Shown: in pieces, positions 43,395 through 55,584 of the stretch
Numbering within the stretch: the first letter of the stretch is position 1
How the letters are laid out: each line of letters opens with the position of its first letter
Assembly (NCBI RefSeq): GCF_000147075.1
Contig: NC_014484.1
Location: 2,125,501 to 2,189,500, forward strand
Origin: Spirochaeta thermophila DSM 6192
GTDB taxonomy: Bacteria; Spirochaetota; Spirochaetia; Winmispirales; Winmispiraceae
Reading direction: 5' to 3'
Length of the DNA: 64,000 nt
Position numbers and translations under genes: made by a program
Notes under the pieces: generated by a model
Database searches by the model: none
Seen by the model: only the letters and a program-made list of their open reading frames with translations
What the model was told of the DNA's origin: nothing

Positions 43395-46300
43395 TCACAG
43401 GGTCTTCACCACCCCTCCGGCAAAGGTGAACCCTGCCCCGAAGGCCGTGAGCCCCAGGACCATCCCGGACCGTGCCGTGGGGAAGATCTCCTCGAAGCAG
43501 AGGGGAATGGTCGTAGCCGAGGTGTTGCCCAGCCGGGCGATGTTGGAGAACACCTTCTCCTCCGGCACCCCCATACGCTTCCGCACCGCATCGATGATCC
43601 GCTGGTTCGCCTGGTGCGGCACCAGCAGATCCATCTCCTCCAGACTGAATCCTGCCTCATCCAGGGCCCTCCTGAGGATGTGGATGAGGGCCTTCACCGC
43701 ACGCTGGTAGACCGCAGGCCCGTCCATGAAGATGGGCTCCTCGTAGGGGATCCTGAGGATGGACCCATCCTCCCCTTCGGCCGAGAGCACAGGCCGGTAG
43801 AGGAAGCCCTTACCCCCGGCCCCCGCCTTCGCACCTGCCACGAGCGTGGCGCTCGCCCCATCGGCAAAGACCGGTGCGGTGGAGGGATCGGAGACATCGA
43901 GCCTCCTCGAGAGCACATCGGCGGTCACCACGAGCACGGTATCCTCGGGTCGGGAGGCGAGATAATCGTAGGCGATCTGGAGGGCATAGAGATAGCCGGA
44001 GCAGGCTGCGTTGATGTCGTAGGCCGGGCAGGTGATCCCCTGCTTCCCCCGGCCCAGCCTGTGCTGGAGCAGGGTGGCAAGGGCCGGGCTGTTGTGGGGC
44101 GGCGTGGTGGTCGCACAGAGGATGAGATCCACGTCCTCGATCCCCGCGCCCGTGCGCTCGAAGAGCCTCTGTACCGCATCCACCGAGAGCGAGAGGATAT
44201 CCTCATCCTCGGAGGCCCACCGCCGTTCATGGATCCCGGTACGACGCACGATGTCCTCGGGGGTCCAGGTGGGACACATCTTCGAGATCTCCTCGTTGGT
44301 CACCACCCTCGAGCCGGGCCTGCCGGCCACGTCCACGATCACGGGGAGGGCCGCATCCCTTCCCTCCTCCTGCGGACGCTCCTCACGCGCCGCATCGATC
44401 CTCACCCCGGGCTTCTTCTTCGCCCCGCCGAGCCCCTCGATGATGGGCGCACCAGGCTCCTCCTGGGTGATCGGCTTCTCCTTGGATGCAGCCCCCTCGG
44501 GGAGCCTTATCCGGGCGATGGCGCTCCCCACCGGCGCCGACTCCCCTTCCTTCACCATGAGCTCCTCCACCACCCCATCGACCGAGGCCCGTATCTCCAC
44601 CGCCGCCTTGTCGGCCTCTGCCTCGGCCACGATCTCGCCTGCCTTGATGGCATCGCCCTCCTTCACCTTCCACTCGAGGATGGTGATCCGCTCGTCCGAC
44701 GGGCTCGAGCCCACCGCCTCCAGGAAGTAGTAGCCGGCCTCGGCCTTGGGCTTCTCCTGCCACCGTACGGTGCCGCCGAGCATCCGCACCGCCGTGGTGA
44801 GCACCCGCTTGTACGAGGGGAGCACCTCGAGCTGACAGGGGAAGTTGCACGGCACGTAGGTGTCGGCCCGCGTCACACGGACCGCCTCCACCGGAACGCC
44901 GGCCTCCTCGGCCACGGTGGCCACGATCTCCGCCCCCATACCCGCGGTGTGGGTGTCCTCGTGCACCACGATGAGCCTGCCGGTCTTGCGCACCGAGGCG
45001 AGCACCGCCTCCTTGTCCCACGGCACGATGCTCCGCAGGTCGATCACCTCCGCCTCCACCCCGTACCGGGAGAGGGTCTCGGCTGCCCTGAGGCAGTGGA
45101 GGATGTTGTTCCCCCACGTCACCATGGTGAGGTCCTCCCCCCGTCGAAGGATCTTCGCCTTGCCTATGGGCACCAGGTGGCGGCGGACATCACGTGTGGC
45201 GGCGAACTGCCTGTTGTTGAGCATGCTCTTGGGATAGAAGAAGAGGGTGGGCCTCCCCGAGGCAAAGGCGGCGTTGAGGAGGCCTGCGGCGTCGTCGGCC
45301 GAGCTCGGCATGAACACATCCACGCCCGGTATGTGGGCCGCAATCCCCTCCATGGTGCTCGCGTGGAAGGGCCCGAGGCCGGGCTTATACCCCCCACACG
45401 AGATCATCACGATGACAGGACACTCCCACCCCCCGTTCGTGCGCCACCACATACTCCCCAGCTCGCTGATGATCTGGTTGAAGGCGATGGGGAGGAAGTC
45501 GGCAAACTGGAGGAAGGCCACAGGCCGCTTCCCTGCGAGGGCCATCCCGATGGAGATCCCCAGGATGCTCGACTCGGCGAGGGGTGAGTTCTGGACCCTG
45601 CCGGGGAACTTCCGGGTGAGCCCCCTCGTCACCCCGAAGACATCCCCCTTGGGATCCTCTATGTCCTCTCCGAAGAGGAAGACGCCCGGGTTCCCGGCGA
45701 GGTGCTTCTCCAGCACCCGGTTGATCGCATCCCGCATCACGAGGACCTCCTCCTCGGAGAGGGGAGGTGCCTCGTCCTCGATCGATGGGTCCTCCAGCTC
45801 CGGCGGGAGGGGCTTCTTCGCGGTGAAGATGGGCTCGGGGTCGGGCACGAGCTGGCACCTCGCGGCGAGGCCTTCGAGCTCGGCCCTCCAGGCGGCCTCC
45901 TTCTCCAAGAGCTCGGCCTCGGAGAAGCCGCTCTCTATGAGGGCGGCCCTGAGCTTCTTGATCGGATCCGCGGCCTCCCGCACCCTCCGCCGTTCGTCCT
46001 CGGGCCGGTAGATCGACTCGTCGTCCGCATTCGTGTGGTTGCACAGCCGCTCCACATCGAAGACCACGATCCGGGGCTCCCGGTCATCCCGCATCCTCGC
46101 CACCACGTCCCTGAGGGTGTGGTATGCCGTCACCGCATCGGTGCCGTCCACATAGGTGATGGGGATGCCGTAGAAGGAGTCCACCCTCCCCCCTGGAAGC
46201 TCGTAGAAGGTCTTGCCCTCGGTCCTGGTGGAGATGGCGTACTTGTTGTCCTCGATGAAGAAGAGCACGGGGAGCCGGTCCCTCACCGCATGGGCGACAG

Positions 46301-46772
46301 CCTCGAGCACCTCCCCCTGCTGGGTCATGCCGTCGCCCAGGGAGCAGAGGACCACGGGCGCCCCCTCATCGTCGCGCACCGCCTTGGCCACACCCACCGC
46401 CTGGAGGGCGGAATTGCCGACCGGCCCCACGATGGAGAGGATCTTGAGGTGCGGGGCGCTGATGTGCGCGCTCATCTGTCTCCCTGCGGAGTGCGACTCC
46501 CGGTTGGTGAAGAGCGAGTGGAAGAACTGCGCAGGATCGAGCCCCCTCGCGAGCATGAGGGCCTTGTCGCGGTAGTGGCAGTGAAGCCAGTCGTGCTCGG
46601 TAAGGAGCGGGGCGAGCACCGCGGAGGCCTCGTGGCCTGCACCGGAGACCGTGAAGAAGGCCTCGCCCCGCTTGGTGTAGTCCTCTTCCAGGCGATCTAT
46701 CTCCCTGGCGGAGAACATGTATCGGTAGAGGTCGAGAAAAAGCGCTCTCTCGGATTCGTTGAGACGTGCCAT
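43395..46772 (-). CDS. Fused 2-oxoacid dehydrogenase E1alpha-E1beta, lipoyl domain and KASIII
   Basis: One 1125-residue polypeptide. Residues 1-~310 are E1alpha, with the ThDP motif L-G-D-G-M-T (146-150) ending at E-D-N (176). ~335-670 are E1beta (G-E-D-I-E-D-P-K-G-D-V-F; D-L-R-S-I-V-P-W-D), closest in feel to branched-chain (2-oxoisovalerate) types. ~690-760 is a lipoyl domain, E-A-D-K-A with Lys722. After a charged linker, ~810-1125 is a ketoacyl-ACP synthase III (FabH) with Cys924 (A-A-C-S-G), His1053 (P-H-Q-A-N) and Asn1083 (L-G-N-T). There is no subunit-binding or acyltransferase (E2) domain. I infer oxidative decarboxylation of a branched-chain oxo acid, capture on the lipoyl arm and condensation with malonyl-ACP to start iso/anteiso fatty acids. 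ATG 46772 follows GGGGGA. Own promoter and terminator. Confidence 0.88.
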   Translation of the reverse strand: MARLNESERALFLDLYRYMFSAREIDRLEEDYTKRGEAFFTVSGAGHEASAVLAPLLTEHDWLHCHYRDKALMLARGLDPAQFFHSLFTNRESHSAGRQMSAHISAPHLKILSIVGPVGNSALQAVGVAKAVRDDEGAPVVLCSLGDGMTQQGEVLEAVAHAVRDRLPVLFFIEDNKYAISTRTEGKTFYELPGGRVDSFYGIPITYVDGTDAVTAYHTLRDVVARMRDDREPRIVVFDVERLCNHTNADDESIYRPEDERRRVREAADPIKKLRAALIESGFSEAELLEKEAAWRAELEGLAARCQLVPDPEPIFTAKKPLPPELEDPSIEDEAPPLSEEEVLVMRDAINRVLEKHLAGNPGVFLFGEDIEDPKGDVFGVTRGLTRKFPGRVQNSPLAESSILGISIGMALAGKRPVAFLQFADFLPIAFNQIISELGSMWWRTNGGWECPVIVMISCGGYKPGLGPFHASTMEGIAAHIPGVDVFMPSSADDAAGLLNAAFASGRPTLFFYPKSMLNNRQFAATRDVRRHLVPIGKAKILRRGEDLTMVTWGNNILHCLRAAETLSRYGVEAEVIDLRSIVPWDKEAVLASVRKTGRLIVVHEDTHTAGMGAEIVATVAEEAGVPVEAVRVTRADTYVPCNFPCQLEVLPSYKRVLTTAVRMLGGTVRWQEKPKAEAGYYFLEAVGSSPSDERITILEWKVKEGDAIKAGEIVAEAEADKAAVEIRASVDGVVEELMVKEGESAPVGSAIARIRLPEGAASKEKPITQEEPGAPIIEGLGGAKKKPGVRIDAAREERPQEEGRDAALPVIVDVAGRPGSRVVTNEEISKMCPTWTPEDIVRRTGIHERRWASEDEDILSLSVDAVQRLFERTGAGIEDVDLILCATTTPPHNSPALATLLQHRLGRGKQGITCPAYDINAACSGYLYALQIAYDYLASRPEDTVLVVTADVLSRRLDVSDPSTAPVFADGASATLVAGAKAGAGGKGFLYRPVLSAEGEDGSILRIPYEEPIFMDGPAVYQRAVKALIHILRRALDEAGFSLEEMDLLVPHQANQRIIDAVRKRMGVPEEKVFSNIARLGNTSATTIPLCFEEIFPTARSGMVLGLTAFGAGFTFAGGVVKTL

Positions 46773-46804
46773 GGGTCCCCCTTTCTCGGCCGATGGTCGA
46801 AAAC

Positions 46805-46833
46805 ATGGTACCCCGCCCTCCACGGGGTGTCAA
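46805..46833 (-). promoter_or_regulatory. Promoter for the E1-lipoyl-KASIII gene
   Basis: Consensus TTGACA (46833-46828), 17 nt, TACCAT (46810-46805), about 32 nt upstream of the ATG. Confidence 0.65.
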
Positions 46834-50746: not shown

Positions 50747-51598
50747 ATGCGAAAGGCCATTAGGTCCATGCTCGTCATACTCATGGGCGTGTTCCTCATC
50801 CTCTCCGGCTGCGCGAAGAAGGAAGAAGCCGCGGCCAGTACATGGAAGGATGGGGTGTACTTCGCCCAGCTTCCCGACTTCGACCCCGAGAGCGGTTGGA
50901 AGGACGTGGTGATCCTCGAGGTGAAGGATGGGAAGATCGCCTCCGTGGTCTGGAACGCCGTGCACAGGGATGCGGGTCCCGACAAGATCACACGCTCCAT
51001 GAACGGACAGTATCCCATAGTGGAGCGTGGCGGTGCCAAGGCTCCCTGGCATGAGCAGGCACAGAAGGCGGTGGAGTACCTTCTTAAGACCCAGGATCCC
51101 ACCAAGATCACCTACACCGACGACGAGGGCCACACCGACGCTATCTCGGGCGTCTCCATCCACGTGAAGGAGCTCTTCGAGCTCGCGAAGGAGGCCCTGG
51201 AGCGCGGCCCCGTCGGCTACGGCCCCTACAAGGATGGCACCTATCACGCCGAGCAGGCCGACTTCAGCCCGCAGGGGTGGAAGGAGTTCGTGGACATCAC
51301 GGTGCTGGGCGGAAGGATCGTGGCCGTGCGCTGGGATGCCCTCCACAAGGACGGCGGCGATCCCAAGGACACTCGCTCCCGCAATGGCGAGTACGGCATG
51401 TACGAGAACGGTGGGGCACAGGCACCCTGGTGGCAGCAGGCCGAGGCGGTGGAGAAGTACCTGATGCAGACCCAGGATCCCACCAAGATCACCTACACCG
51501 ACGACGAGGGCCACACCGACGCTATCTCGGGCGTCTCCATCCACGTGAGCTCCTTCTTCCAGCTCGCCCAGGAGGCCCTCAAGGACGCCCGAAGGTAA
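50747..51598 (+). CDS. Lipoprotein with two FMN-binding domains (PplA-like)
   Basis: A 283-residue surface lipoprotein. The signal F-L-I-L-S-G-C puts the lipid on Cys22. Two FMN-binding-type domains follow (~32-150 and ~159-277), repeating with a period of 127 residues. Each ends in the flavinylation-like motif D-A-I-S-G-V-S, with Ser137 and Ser264 as possible covalent FMN acceptors; the usual Ala before the acceptor is Val. The same two-domain architecture is found in PplA of the Listeria extracellular electron-transfer locus and in spirochaete membrane immunogens (COG4939). Neighbours make the quinone side of such a chain. The promoter is very strong, so the protein is probably abundant. 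Confidence 0.85.
   Translation: MRKAIRSMLVILMGVFLILSGCAKKEEAAASTWKDGVYFAQLPDFDPESGWKDVVILEVKDGKIASVVWNAVHRDAGPDKITRSMNGQYPIVERGGAKAPWHEQAQKAVEYLLKTQDPTKITYTDDEGHTDAISGVSIHVKELFELAKEALERGPVGYGPYKDGTYHAEQADFSPQGWKEFVDITVLGGRIVAVRWDALHKDGGDPKDTRSRNGEYGMYENGGAQAPWWQQAEAVEKYLMQTQDPTKITYTDDEGHTDAISGVSIHVSSFFQLAQEALKDARR
51087..51167 (+). repeat. 81-bp direct repeat, copy 1
   Basis: Identical over 81 bp to 51468-51548, offset 381 bp (127 codons), covering the end of FMN domain 1 of the lipoprotein. Confidence 0.97.
51468..51548 (+). repeat. 81-bp direct repeat, copy 2
   Basis: Identical to 51087-51167 including all silent positions, while the rest of the two domains has diverged. Confidence 0.97.
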
Positions 51599-51688: not shown

Positions 51689-52624
51689 GTGATCACACCC
51701 TATCAGTTCGCCCGCATCGTGGAGATCCGTACCAAGATCGTGAGTGTCTCCTCGTTCGCCATAGGCACGCTCTACGCCATCGCCATAGTGGGGGAATGGG
51801 ACCCCGTACGCCTGGTGGTGATGTTCCTCGCCGTGTTCGCGGTGGACATGGGGACCACGGCCTTCAACACCTTCTTCGACTACTGGAAGGGAGTCGACCG
51901 CAAGGAGCTCAACAGGGAAGAGGACAAGGTACTCGTGCATCAGGACGTGCCGCCGGGATACGCCCTCATCATCGCGGGAGGGCTCTTCCTCCTCGCCGCC
52001 CTGCTGGGGCTCGTGCTCGCAGTGCTCGTGGCCGAGGCCTTCGGCCTCGCGGCAGCCCTTGGGCTCCTCGCCACCGGTGCGGCCTGCATGGCCGTGGGCT
52101 TCTTCTACAACGGTGGGCCGAGACCCCTCTCCTTCACCCCGTTCGGGGAGCTCTTCGCAGGCGGGTTCCTGGGAGGCATCCTCGTCCTCCTCTCCATCTT
52201 CGTCCAGACAGGCCGTATCACCCCCCCGTCCCTCCTCCTCGCCGTCCCCTCCACCCTCCTCGTGGCCTCCATCCTCACCGTGAACAACACCTGCGACATG
52301 GAAGGGGACCGCGTGGCAGGACGCCGCACCCTCTCCATCCTCGTGGGCCTCCCCGCCAGCCGCATCCTCGTCTACGCCCAGGGGATCCTGGCCTATCTCG
52401 TCCTCGCCCTCTGCGGCCTCCTCGACATCCTCCCCCGCCTCACCCTCCTCACCGCCGCCCTCGGCCTCACCCAGGCCCTCCTCACCTACCGGCGCATGCA
52501 CCGGCGGGGCTATGCCCACGCCACCAAGGGCCCCTCCATGCAGGACATCCTCGCCGTCTTTCTCGTCTTCACCCTCGCCGCCGTCCTCCCCCTCACCCTC
52601 CGCCTCTTCCTCCCCGTCCCCTGA
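51689..52624 (+). CDS. menA: UbiA-family prenyltransferase, MenA type
   Basis: A 311-residue membrane enzyme that attaches a polyprenyl chain to 1,4-dihydroxy-2-naphthoate to make demethylmenaquinone. The two Asp-rich motifs are N-T-F-F-D-Y-W-K-G-V-D (about 60-70) and N-N-T-C-D-M-E-G-D-R (about 200), with around eight helices. GTG start with GAGGAGGATC upstream. Its stop lies 6 bp from that of the convergent polyprenyl synthase, which should supply its prenyl donor. Other men genes are not in the window, so the naphthoate source is unknown. Confidence 0.88.
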   Translation: MITPYQFARIVEIRTKIVSVSSFAIGTLYAIAIVGEWDPVRLVVMFLAVFAVDMGTTAFNTFFDYWKGVDRKELNREEDKVLVHQDVPPGYALIIAGGLFLLAALLGLVLAVLVAEAFGLAAALGLLATGAACMAVGFFYNGGPRPLSFTPFGELFAGGFLGGILVLLSIFVQTGRITPPSLLLAVPSTLLVASILTVNNTCDMEGDRVAGRRTLSILVGLPASRILVYAQGILAYLVLALCGLLDILPRLTLLTAALGLTQALLTYRRMHRRGYAHATKGPSMQDILAVFLVFTLAAVLPLTLRLFLPVP

Positions 52625-52630
52625 CACCCC

Positions 52631-53614
52631 CTACACCCTCCGCACCACCAGCTCCGCCAGCACCTCCTCCAGCACCCGCCGCCACCTCCCCGCCGGCAGC
52701 CCACCCGCCTCCCGAAGCGCCCGCGCCGTGAACCCCTGCGCGAACCCCCTCGCCTCCTCCACCGCCCCCGAGGCCACGAGCCGCCTCCGGACCTTTCCCG
52801 CCCACACACGGCTAGCCACCCCTCCCGCGCACGCCCGTCGCATCCAGACCCCCAGACGCTCCCCCTCCCGCCGCGCGAGCATCACCGCCGGCGCCCCCAC
52901 CACCCCCTGCTCCACATCCCGCCCCACCGGCTTCCCCAACCCCCTTCCCGCCACATCGAGCACATCGTCGATCACCTGGAAGGCCATCCCCACGTTGTAG
53001 CCGATACGCCTGAGCCTGCGCACCACCTCCTCCTCCGCCCCGGCCTCCGACGCCCCCAGGTGGAACGCCACCACGAACAGAAGCCCCGTCTTCCTCAGGA
53101 TGCGCCTCAGGTACCTCCTGAGGCTGAAGGCATCCCTCCCCAGCGCCCGTCGCACCTCCACCTCCTCTATCTCGCCGTCGAGGATGTGCCGGACCCCACG
53201 GGAGAGGAAGACCGCATGGTCCCTGCTCGCGTACTCGGCCACCAGTTCGAGGGCCTTCGCGAACAGGAGATCCCCCATGAGCACCGCCTCCTTCACCCCG
53301 TACGCCCGATGCAAGGCCGCCCCACCCCGTCTCGTCGCCGCATCGTCCACGATATCGTCGTGCACCAGGGTCGCCATGTGGAGCATCTCGAGGGCCGCGG
53401 CGAGCCGCACCACCCTCTCGGGGATCTCACCCTCGCCCACGCCGAACCGCGCCGAGAGGACCATACACCCCGGCCGGAGGAGCTTCGCATCGCGCGAGGC
53501 GAGGTCCACGAGCGCAGAAGAAAGCTCCCCCGAAGGGGAGCCGAGCTCCTCACGGATGAGATCCCTCACCCGCACCACGTCGGGTGCTATGGAAGGAAAC
53601 TTCTCCCAGAACAT
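52631..53614 (-). CDS. Polyprenyl diphosphate synthase
   Basis: A 327-residue trans-prenyl synthase adding isopentenyl units for the quinone tail. The first Asp-rich motif H-D-D-I-V-D-D is at ~85-92, followed by T-R-R-G; the second, Q-V-I-D-D-V-L-D, is at ~212-219. The size and the small residues before the first motif (L-H-M-A-T-L-V) suggest a long-chain (C30-C50) product, but chain length cannot be fixed by eye. ATG 53614 shares its A with the TGA of ndh (TGATG). The 3' part is extremely G-rich on the coding strand. Co-transcribed with ndh. Confidence 0.87.
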   Translation of the reverse strand: MFWEKFPSIAPDVVRVRDLIREELGSPSGELSSALVDLASRDAKLLRPGCMVLSARFGVGEGEIPERVVRLAAALEMLHMATLVHDDIVDDAATRRGGAALHRAYGVKEAVLMGDLLFAKALELVAEYASRDHAVFLSRGVRHILDGEIEEVEVRRALGRDAFSLRRYLRRILRKTGLLFVVAFHLGASEAGAEEEVVRRLRRIGYNVGMAFQVIDDVLDVAGRGLGKPVGRDVEQGVVGAPAVMLARREGERLGVWMRRACAGGVASRVWAGKVRRRLVASGAVEEARGFAQGFTARALREAGGLPAGRWRRVLEEVLAELVVRRV

Positions 53615-55584
53615 CAGGGACGAGGCTCTCCGCTGTAGAAATAGCTCCTCTTGGCGAGACCGAACCCGTTCCAGCGGTCCTTGACCCAGGGCATCACGTA
53701 GTGATCCAGACCGAACCCACGACCCGCACCACCCATCATCACCACCGCCGCTGCGATGTACCACAACAGTTCGGGGGAACCCCATCCGGAGATGATGAAC
53801 ATCACCGCAAGACCGATCGTCGCCACCGCAGCCGGGAATACGAAGAGCCCTCCGATGAAGGCGAGCCCTATCAAGATCTCCGCGAGCACCACCCCCGCCT
53901 GCGCCAGGAAGGCGAGCGCAGGCACGGCCGAGAGCACGTGCTCGGCGAACCAGGTGTAGATCCCCAAAGCCGGCATGAGCGCCTCGCCGTAGCCACCACC
54001 CGCTGCAGCCTCCGCCGCCGCGCTCGCTGCAGTGGCCGCATCCGCTGCCGCCTGGGCCGAAGCCGCGCTCACCGCATCACCCAGCACCACACCGGGAAGG
54101 TGGATCGCCGAAGGATCGGGGTTGAACACCCCGCCTGCACCGGGGTTGAGCCACCCCTCCAGGACCTTCTTGATCCCCTCCACGAGCCACTTCGCCCCCA
54201 GGAAGAGCCGCAAGGGGAGGGCCCAGTACACAGGGATCCGCCACGCGAGGTGATCGTGCACGATCGAACGCCTGTCCTTGATGTGGAAGAACTCCTCCTG
54301 GAGGTACCTCCAGACCGCATTGAACCCCGCGAGCCCCCACAGGTAGTGCAGGTTCACCATGTGCTTGAGGGCCATGGCCAGGATCCCGGACATCTGCACC
54401 CCCATCACGTGGGCAACCGCGTACGTGCTCCCCACCGACACCATGAACCCGTGGTAGTTGCTCCGGAAGGGCTTTTTCTCCTTGCCCTCTATATCGGCGA
54501 TGATGTTGTGCGCCGCAGTCTCGGCGGTCTGGAGCGCCGTCTCCACCACCTGGGGGAGGACCTTCTTCCCCTCCACGTACCAGGTGATATCGCCCACCAC
54601 GTAGACATCGGGGTGATCGTGGGCCTGCATCTGGTCGTTCACCAGGAACCGGCCCCGCACCCCCACCATATCGCGGTCCTCCTCGTCGATGTAGCAGGCC
54701 GCCATGCCGTGGATCCCGTCCGACGTCACCACCGAGCACTGCCCCCTGGCCGCCTGTCCCATGGTGAGCGGCACCCGGGCACTCAGCTCACCGCCGTGTA
54801 CCCCAGCGGTCCAGATGAAGGTCTCGGTCTCTATGGTCTTCTCGCCTATGAGCACCTCCCTCTTGCGCGCGCCGGTGATGGGCGAGCTCGTGAGGATCTC
54901 CGCCCCCATCCGTTCGAGCCTCCGGTGCGCCTTCCGGGCGAGACGCTCGGTGAAGTTCGGAAGGATCCGCGGGAGGGCCTCCACCATGACGACCCTCACC
55001 TCATCCTTCGGAATGTGGTACTTCCTGCAGAGCACCTTCCTGTGTTCGAGCAGCTCTCCTGCGAGCTCGACCCCGGTGAACCCACCCCCTGCGATCACAA
55101 AGGTGAGGTAGCGCCGCCTCTTCCGGGGATCCTGAGTCTTCGAGGCCTCGTCGAAGCAGTTCTCCACGTGCCTCCGCAGCCTCACCGCATCGTCCCAGCT
55201 CCAGAGGGTGAAACAGTTCTCCTGCACACCCGGTATGTTGAAGAACTCGGGCGCCCCGCCAGCCGCCATCACCAGGTAGGTGTAGGGGTAGCGTCCCTCC
55301 TCCCCTATCACCACCTTCTCCTCCACGTCCACGGTCTCCACCCTGTCGGTGACCCAACGCACCTTCCTCCCCCCGAAGATCACGTGGAAACTCACCCTCG
55401 TGGCATCGGGCACCACCCGCCCGCCTGCCACCTCGTGGAGGTCGGTCATGAGCGTGTGGTAGGGATTCTTATCGATGAGCAGGATCTCCACGTCCTCCCG
55501 CTTCCTGAACCGCTTCTCCAGGATCTTGGCCGCATGCACACCGGCATACCCGCCGCCTATGATGACAATTCGCCTCGTCTCCAT
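53614..55584 (-). CDS. ndh: Type II NADH dehydrogenase fused to a DoxX domain
   Basis: A 656-residue membrane flavoprotein. Residues 1-~440 are NDH-2: FAD site I-V-I-I-G-G-G-Y-A-G (6-15), NAD site V-I-A-G-G-G-F-T-G-V-E (163-173), and V-Y-V-V-G-D-I (327-333). From ~450 a DoxX-like domain follows: first helix R-L-F-L-G-A-K-W-L-V-E-G-I-K-K-V-L, then an inserted Ala/Gly-rich loop (503-533), then three more helices (545-625). NDH-2 passes electrons from NADH to quinone without pumping. In an otherwise fermentative genome this points to electron disposal. ATG 55584 follows GGAGG. Operon with the polyprenyl synthase. Confidence 0.88.
   Translation of the reverse strand: METRRIVIIGGGYAGVHAAKILEKRFRKREDVEILLIDKNPYHTLMTDLHEVAGGRVVPDATRVSFHVIFGGRKVRWVTDRVETVDVEEKVVIGEEGRYPYTYLVMAAGGAPEFFNIPGVQENCFTLWSWDDAVRLRRHVENCFDEASKTQDPRKRRRYLTFVIAGGGFTGVELAGELLEHRKVLCRKYHIPKDEVRVVMVEALPRILPNFTERLARKAHRRLERMGAEILTSSPITGARKREVLIGEKTIETETFIWTAGVHGGELSARVPLTMGQAARGQCSVVTSDGIHGMAACYIDEEDRDMVGVRGRFLVNDQMQAHDHPDVYVVGDITWYVEGKKVLPQVVETALQTAETAAHNIIADIEGKEKKPFRSNYHGFMVSVGSTYAVAHVMGVQMSGILAMALKHMVNLHYLWGLAGFNAVWRYLQEEFFHIKDRRSIVHDHLAWRIPVYWALPLRLFLGAKWLVEGIKKVLEGWLNPGAGGVFNPDPSAIHLPGVVLGDAVSAASAQAAADAATAASAAAEAAAGGGYGEALMPALGIYTWFAEHVLSAVPALAFLAQAGVVLAEILIGLAFIGGLFVFPAAVATIGLAVMFIISGWGSPELLWYIAAAVVMMGGAGRGFGLDHYVMPWVKDRWNGFGLAKRSYFYSGEPRP

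Follow-up and report, generated by a model that had tools for sequence, protein, structure and literature searches.

The two tandem FMN_bind domains encoded by a PplA-like twin-flavin lipoprotein gene share an exact 81-bp identity that is, with very high probability, the footprint of intragenic gene conversion. The gene lies in a 64,000-nt stretch of the Spirochaeta thermophila DSM 6192 genome (hereafter the window), and is a clean natural case of intragenic conversion restricted to the cofactor-attachment segment, with a sister-species test at hand. The features of the gene are as follows.

50747..51598, + strand: twin-FMN lipoprotein gene; ORF of 283 aa with two tandem FMN_bind-type domains, PplA-like
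50894..51193, + strand: domain 1 in the 300-nt repeat register (direct repeat D1, 73% identity, spacing 381)
51275..51574, + strand: domain 2 in the 300-nt repeat register (direct repeat D1, 73% identity, spacing 381)
51087..51167, + strand: homogenised (putatively converted) tract, copy 1, holding the motif DAISGVS; it matches copy 2 exactly over 81 bp and shows concerted site patterns when compared with two related species
51468..51548, + strand: homogenised (putatively converted) tract, copy 2, holding the motif DAISGVS; exact 81-bp identity with copy 1, concerted site patterns
51155..51157, + strand: codon for Ser137, where FMN is predicted to attach in domain 1 (SGVS), from motif position and analogy with the [S/T]GA[S/T]-like motif
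51536..51538, + strand: codon for Ser264, where FMN is predicted to attach in domain 2 (SGVS), on the same grounds

The gene and its neighbours

The product combines the two features expected of a PplA-type twin-FMN lipoprotein—two FMN_bind domains and a lipoprotein signal, the latter a lipobox-like start, LSGC, read from the sequence. Domain 1 matches Pfam FMN_bind (PF04205) at 24.2 bits against a cut-off of 22, and domain 2 has a solved homologue, 2kzx (E 8.7e-45). PplA is the best named relative, with a score far under the model cut-off; the 283-aa protein reaches 45.8 bits against the 325 set for NCBIfam NF041941. FMN_bind is found at three other places in the genome, which also encodes one ApbE flavin transferase (308 bits), not adjacent to the twin-FMN gene. 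Both domains carry SGVS, and because its third position departs from [S/T]GA[S/T], flavinylation of Ser137 and Ser264 is graded here as likely, as a prediction by analogy.

Three genes adjoin the FMN lipoprotein gene in the window, and their counterparts do so in G111 and in the third species of the comparison below (G002):

51689..52624, + strand: UbiA-family prenyltransferase, menA/DmkA-like (PF01040, 6.3e-25; 1,4-dihydroxy-2-naphthoate prenyltransferase models below cut-off)
52631..53785, - strand: polyprenyl diphosphate synthase (PF00348, 1.6e-51; ORF start uncertain)
53614..55584, - strand: NDH-2-like pyridine nucleotide-disulphide oxidoreductase with a C-terminal extension (PF07992, 4.1e-35)

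We infer a role for the lipoprotein in flavin-based extracytosolic electron transfer. The frames of the polyprenyl synthase and the NDH-2-like enzyme, both on the - strand, overlap by 172 bases as listed, so the synthase start is probably further inside. Elsewhere in the window, a 1142-aa frame (43395-46823, - strand) is presumably a fusion of 2-oxoacid dehydrogenase E1 alpha/beta, a lipoyl domain, and a ketoacyl synthase III-like domain.

The tract within and between species

The tract copies are identical over exactly 81 bp, in register at 381 bp and with no extension on either side; a genome search for a third copy of the 81-mer returned two matches, both inside the twin-FMN gene, and thus no outside donor. 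The tract comprises 26 whole codons (residues 115-140 and 242-267 of 283), and upstream of it the two domains differ at 107 of 264 aligned sites. Its silent-site identity exceeds what codon bias predicts: 26 of 26 codons agree, with a log10 P of -6.57 given the same residues and a codon-usage null taken from seven neighbouring genes, and a permutation of same-residue codons gives P about 0.001 for the identity run. Codons 50-114, the remainder of the aligned domain, include 28 same-residue degenerate codons; by this usage 15.3 of them should be identical, and 14 are. An earlier note on this DNA had claimed the identity, its reach to silent sites, and the divergence of the remaining domain; each is borne out, with the ends of the tract at the same bases.

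A contig scan gave only two relatives, and the comparison was therefore built on whole-genome searches. It sets the window genome (G000) beside its genus-mate and sister species G001, whose protein is 97% identical, and G002, a third species of the same family. Inside the tract the copies group by species, and outside it mostly by domain position—the pattern of concerted evolution of one segment. The copies within a gene differ at 0/78 tract sites in the window, 5/78 in G001, and 14/78 in G002; between species the differences are 5/78 and 7/78 for the window against G001, and 20-25/78 to G002. In G002 the copies are again nearer to each other than to their orthologues; G001 alone is near parity (5/78 within the gene against 5 and 7 between species), and its last whole-tract exchange is therefore older, although its copies keep a 37-bp exact run. 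The note had proposed that converted tracts should differ between relatives and match within each gene, and at the species level this is what we find. In the N-terminal part the order is reversed; copies within a gene differ at 106-113 of 264 sites, and orthologues are nearer, at 17/267 and 11/264 between the sisters and 88-97/264 to G002.

Informative sites sort in the same way. Counted as concerted/orthologous/third patterns, the three species comparisons give 3/0/0, 13/0/0, and 10/0/0 inside the tract, against 1/106/0, 18/41/2, and 19/41/5 outside (Fisher, 1.9e-5, 2.9e-6, and 5.0e-5). Outside the tract, the 18 and 19 concerted sites compare with 2 and 5 for the third pattern, which points to earlier exchanges or parallel change in the flanks too, and the tract boundaries are fuzzier over longer times (the 18 sites belong to G000 against G002). 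Two codons are altered in both G001 copies: codon 124 reads AAG for ACC (Thr124 to Lys, two base changes), and codon 132 reads GCC for GCT. The latter could be two parallel mutations. At codon 124, G002 encodes Thr in the first copy and Lys in the second, and the window and G001 lineages may therefore have had opposite directions of conversion.

Selection on the DNA or RNA, or a strong codon bias, might keep two stretches identical with no copying between them, and the tract does sit in a well-conserved part of the domain, in a GC-rich stretch of uneven codon usage. However, the usage that fits the 14 of 28 codons outside the tract leaves the run inside it at the log10 P given above. The two G001 copies depart from the window's mostly at silent sites and at about the gene-wide rate (47 of 852 sites), and every other domain of the 71-gene set described below matches the window tract at 63/78 or fewer. 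Conservation of the identity in all relatives, which the note had named as contrary to conversion, is thus not what is seen. We regard this explanation as extremely improbable, and DNA-level conservation of the tract in particular is ruled out by the different tract DNA that G001 carries in both copies.

An assembly or sequencing artefact, through repeat collapse or a copied consensus, was the note's other concern, and perfect repeats can indeed be mis-assembled. The repeat, however, is only 81 bp long with distinct flanks on both sides in a single-contig genome, and a collapse would lose one copy rather than equalise two; G001, also a single contig, has its own different version of the tract in both copies, and on the strength of this sister genome we reject an artefact as very unlikely. 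That the whole domain was duplicated only recently and its N-terminal part then diverged fast, as the 73% identity of the tandem domains over 300 nt might suggest, is refuted by the positional orthology of the flanks, where 106 of 107 informative sites between the sisters group by domain position and each domain tracks its G002 counterpart (41 sites against 18); this reading is left with scarcely any probability.

Gene conversion would account for the history of the gene as follows. Since flank sites group by domain position (domain 1 with 1, 2 with 2), the duplication is an old event that predates these species and the split from G002. The segment that begins in the loop after helix 1, takes in the SGVS motif, and ends where helix 2 starts would have been copied repeatedly between the domains, and for this reason evolves in concert within each gene. 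The last copying in the window's lineage probably followed the split from the sister species, and one codon in G001 was seemingly converted in the opposite direction. From the observed identity, concerted pattern, and location, we infer conversion as the molecular route, by a non-reciprocal exchange that may have been of RecA type or a template switch between the 381-bp-spaced repeats. Zero differences within the gene against 5 to 7 between the sisters give a loose age bound, placing the conversion within the final 43-60% of the period since the sisters separated (5% level); of the note's "recent gene conversion", the conversion is supported, and "recent" holds only relative to the split from G001.

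Multi-domain FMN genes across the class

The wider survey covers 71 genes of 70 genomes, namely 68 of the 78 matching genomes plus G019 and the Tissierellales locus L031. Five of the 78 were left unfetched (G062, G101, G243, G251, and G304, with short single-domain matches), and five fetched genomes failed a two-motif filter (G048, G109, G144, G347, and G349), as did L032 and the weak matches G013, G026, G038, G046, and G049; second matches in the same genomes (L023-L030) were excluded, and for four genes lacking a motif its position was taken from the spacing. The genes hold two domains (40 genes), three (28), four (2), or five (1).

Long silent-identity runs are more frequent within genes than between species. 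By permutation, 5 of 146 within-gene domain pairs carry one at P<=0.002, against 1 of 400 controls (drawn from 1624 between-species paralogous pairs), and at P <= 0.02 the counts are 11/146 and 2/400. The single control match at P<=0.002 is between G030 and G050, which are sister genomes; each also has a run at that position between its own domains 2 and 3 (L005 and L007), and these matching runs apparently go back to a common ancestor. The C-terminal half contains all 11 within-gene runs, against an expected 7.3 (P about 0.01). Domains 1 and 2 of a three-domain relative (L010, from G041) share a 95-bp exact repeat at codons -34 to -2 from the motif, longer than that of the window gene.

Half-versus-half contrasts were drawn over 64 genes with a same-family partner of equal domain number. 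The within-gene excess over between-species paralogues is 0.053 for codons -45..+11 and 0.014 for codons -105..-46; the contrast is positive in 10/12 families (95% interval 0.021-0.052, P 0.0024). In 20 disjoint species pairs from within a genus, matched in domain number and with orthologues no more than 0.955 identical, the ratio of concerted to third-pattern sites is 147:69 for the C-terminal part, compared with 90:74 for the N-terminal (P 0.010). Summed over all same-genus and G002 pairs, which are non-independent, the ratios are 1326:445 (codons -42..+11) and 718:663 (-102..-43), and the last bin (+18..+23) is likewise concerted (224:54, again from non-independent pairs). The note's further claim, that conversion is focused on the flavin-attachment end, thus stands for the window gene and is moderately supported for the class.

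The class-wide pattern outside the window gene could also arise without any copying of DNA, if selection on amino acids acted in parallel on both flavin pockets. The silent-site-only contrasts are weak: the half contrast over the 64 genes includes zero (0.043, -0.012 to 0.079), and the test in the 20 disjoint pairs falls short of significance (P 0.60). Some of the class-wide signal could therefore stem from such selection. On the other side stand the long silent-identity runs in other genes (30 codons in G041, 25 in G217, 22 in G287) and the rarity of such runs in the between-species control. As the source of the whole pattern, parallel selection seems to us rather unlikely. Only tentatively do we suggest that recurrent conversion is a standing feature of this class's multi-flavin proteins, keeping the attachment half alike (perhaps for matched redox potentials) and leaving the other half position-specific. 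If the class-wide bias is conversion, not parallel selection, it would offer an explanation for the lasting likeness of tandem flavin domains, and a link from DNA exchange to matching redox potentials that can be tested.

The attachment segment and known systems

The location of the tract may have several causes. A weak structure model (mean pLDDT 67, from a two-row alignment), used only for placing helices 101-115 and 138-153, would put the tract at the loop between these helices and the start of the second. Exchange needs matching sequence, and its focus may therefore follow similarity alone; amino-acid identity between paralogues drops from 0.62 in the C-terminal part to 0.42 in the N-terminal, and the location of the tract may be a consequence of that difference. 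Conversion in the N-terminal parts may be selected against, since these are position-specific, and selection may also favour matched flavin sites. Crystal structures of related domains, as described in the parts of PMC10339131 drawn on here, place the attached residue at the start of the second helix, with phosphate, ribityl, and pyrimidine contacts in or beside it; the residues that stack on the flavin ring lie elsewhere than the tract region. The same source gives one potential, -184 mV, for the three similar domains of SaFMN3.

The gene has likenesses in both flavoproteins and converted genes. In the passages of PMC10339131 used here, SaFMN3 and CbFMN4 have three and four tandem covalent-FMN domains of over 80% mutual identity; the window gene shares the tandem arrangement and the high mutual similarity, with covalent FMN only predicted. 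It differs in having two domains, and the evolution of the similarity in SaFMN3 and CbFMN4 is not analysed in those passages. Among the matches listed, literature searches that paired flavinylated or FMN-binding proteins with gene conversion or concerted evolution gave no report of intragenic conversion in multi-flavin proteins, and searches on repeats inside bacterial genes gave nothing closer; the term "gene conversion" is absent from the main text of PMC8238504 and PMC10979944, which deal with flavinylated proteins.

Intragenic gene conversion is itself already known. PplA is the flavoprotein of Listeria flavin-based extracellular electron transfer, with menaquinone-type and NDH-2 genes nearby, and the Listeria cassette includes the EetA/EetB membrane proteins. 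Like PplA, the window protein is a lipoprotein with two FMN_bind domains encoded near menaquinone-type and NDH-2 genes; unlike PplA, it scores far below NF041941 (45.8 vs 325), carries an SGVS motif, and has its ApbE gene elsewhere in the genome.

Among converted genes, tuf and others (26 prokaryotic genes in all) show long-lasting concerted evolution according to the portion of PMC6053082 that bears on this. They share with the window gene the recurrent conversion of paralogous coding sequence; however, conversion in that set is between genes, and intragenic repeats are not treated in that portion. In mtrA, as far as the part of the source used here describes it, conversion is limited to the one domain that bears the corrinoid, and the rest of the protein diverges. 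There the exchange is between two separate genes and spans a whole domain, whereas here it is between two domains of one gene and spans about 26 codons; in both cases homogenisation affects one part only, and the copies are nearer within a species than to their orthologues.
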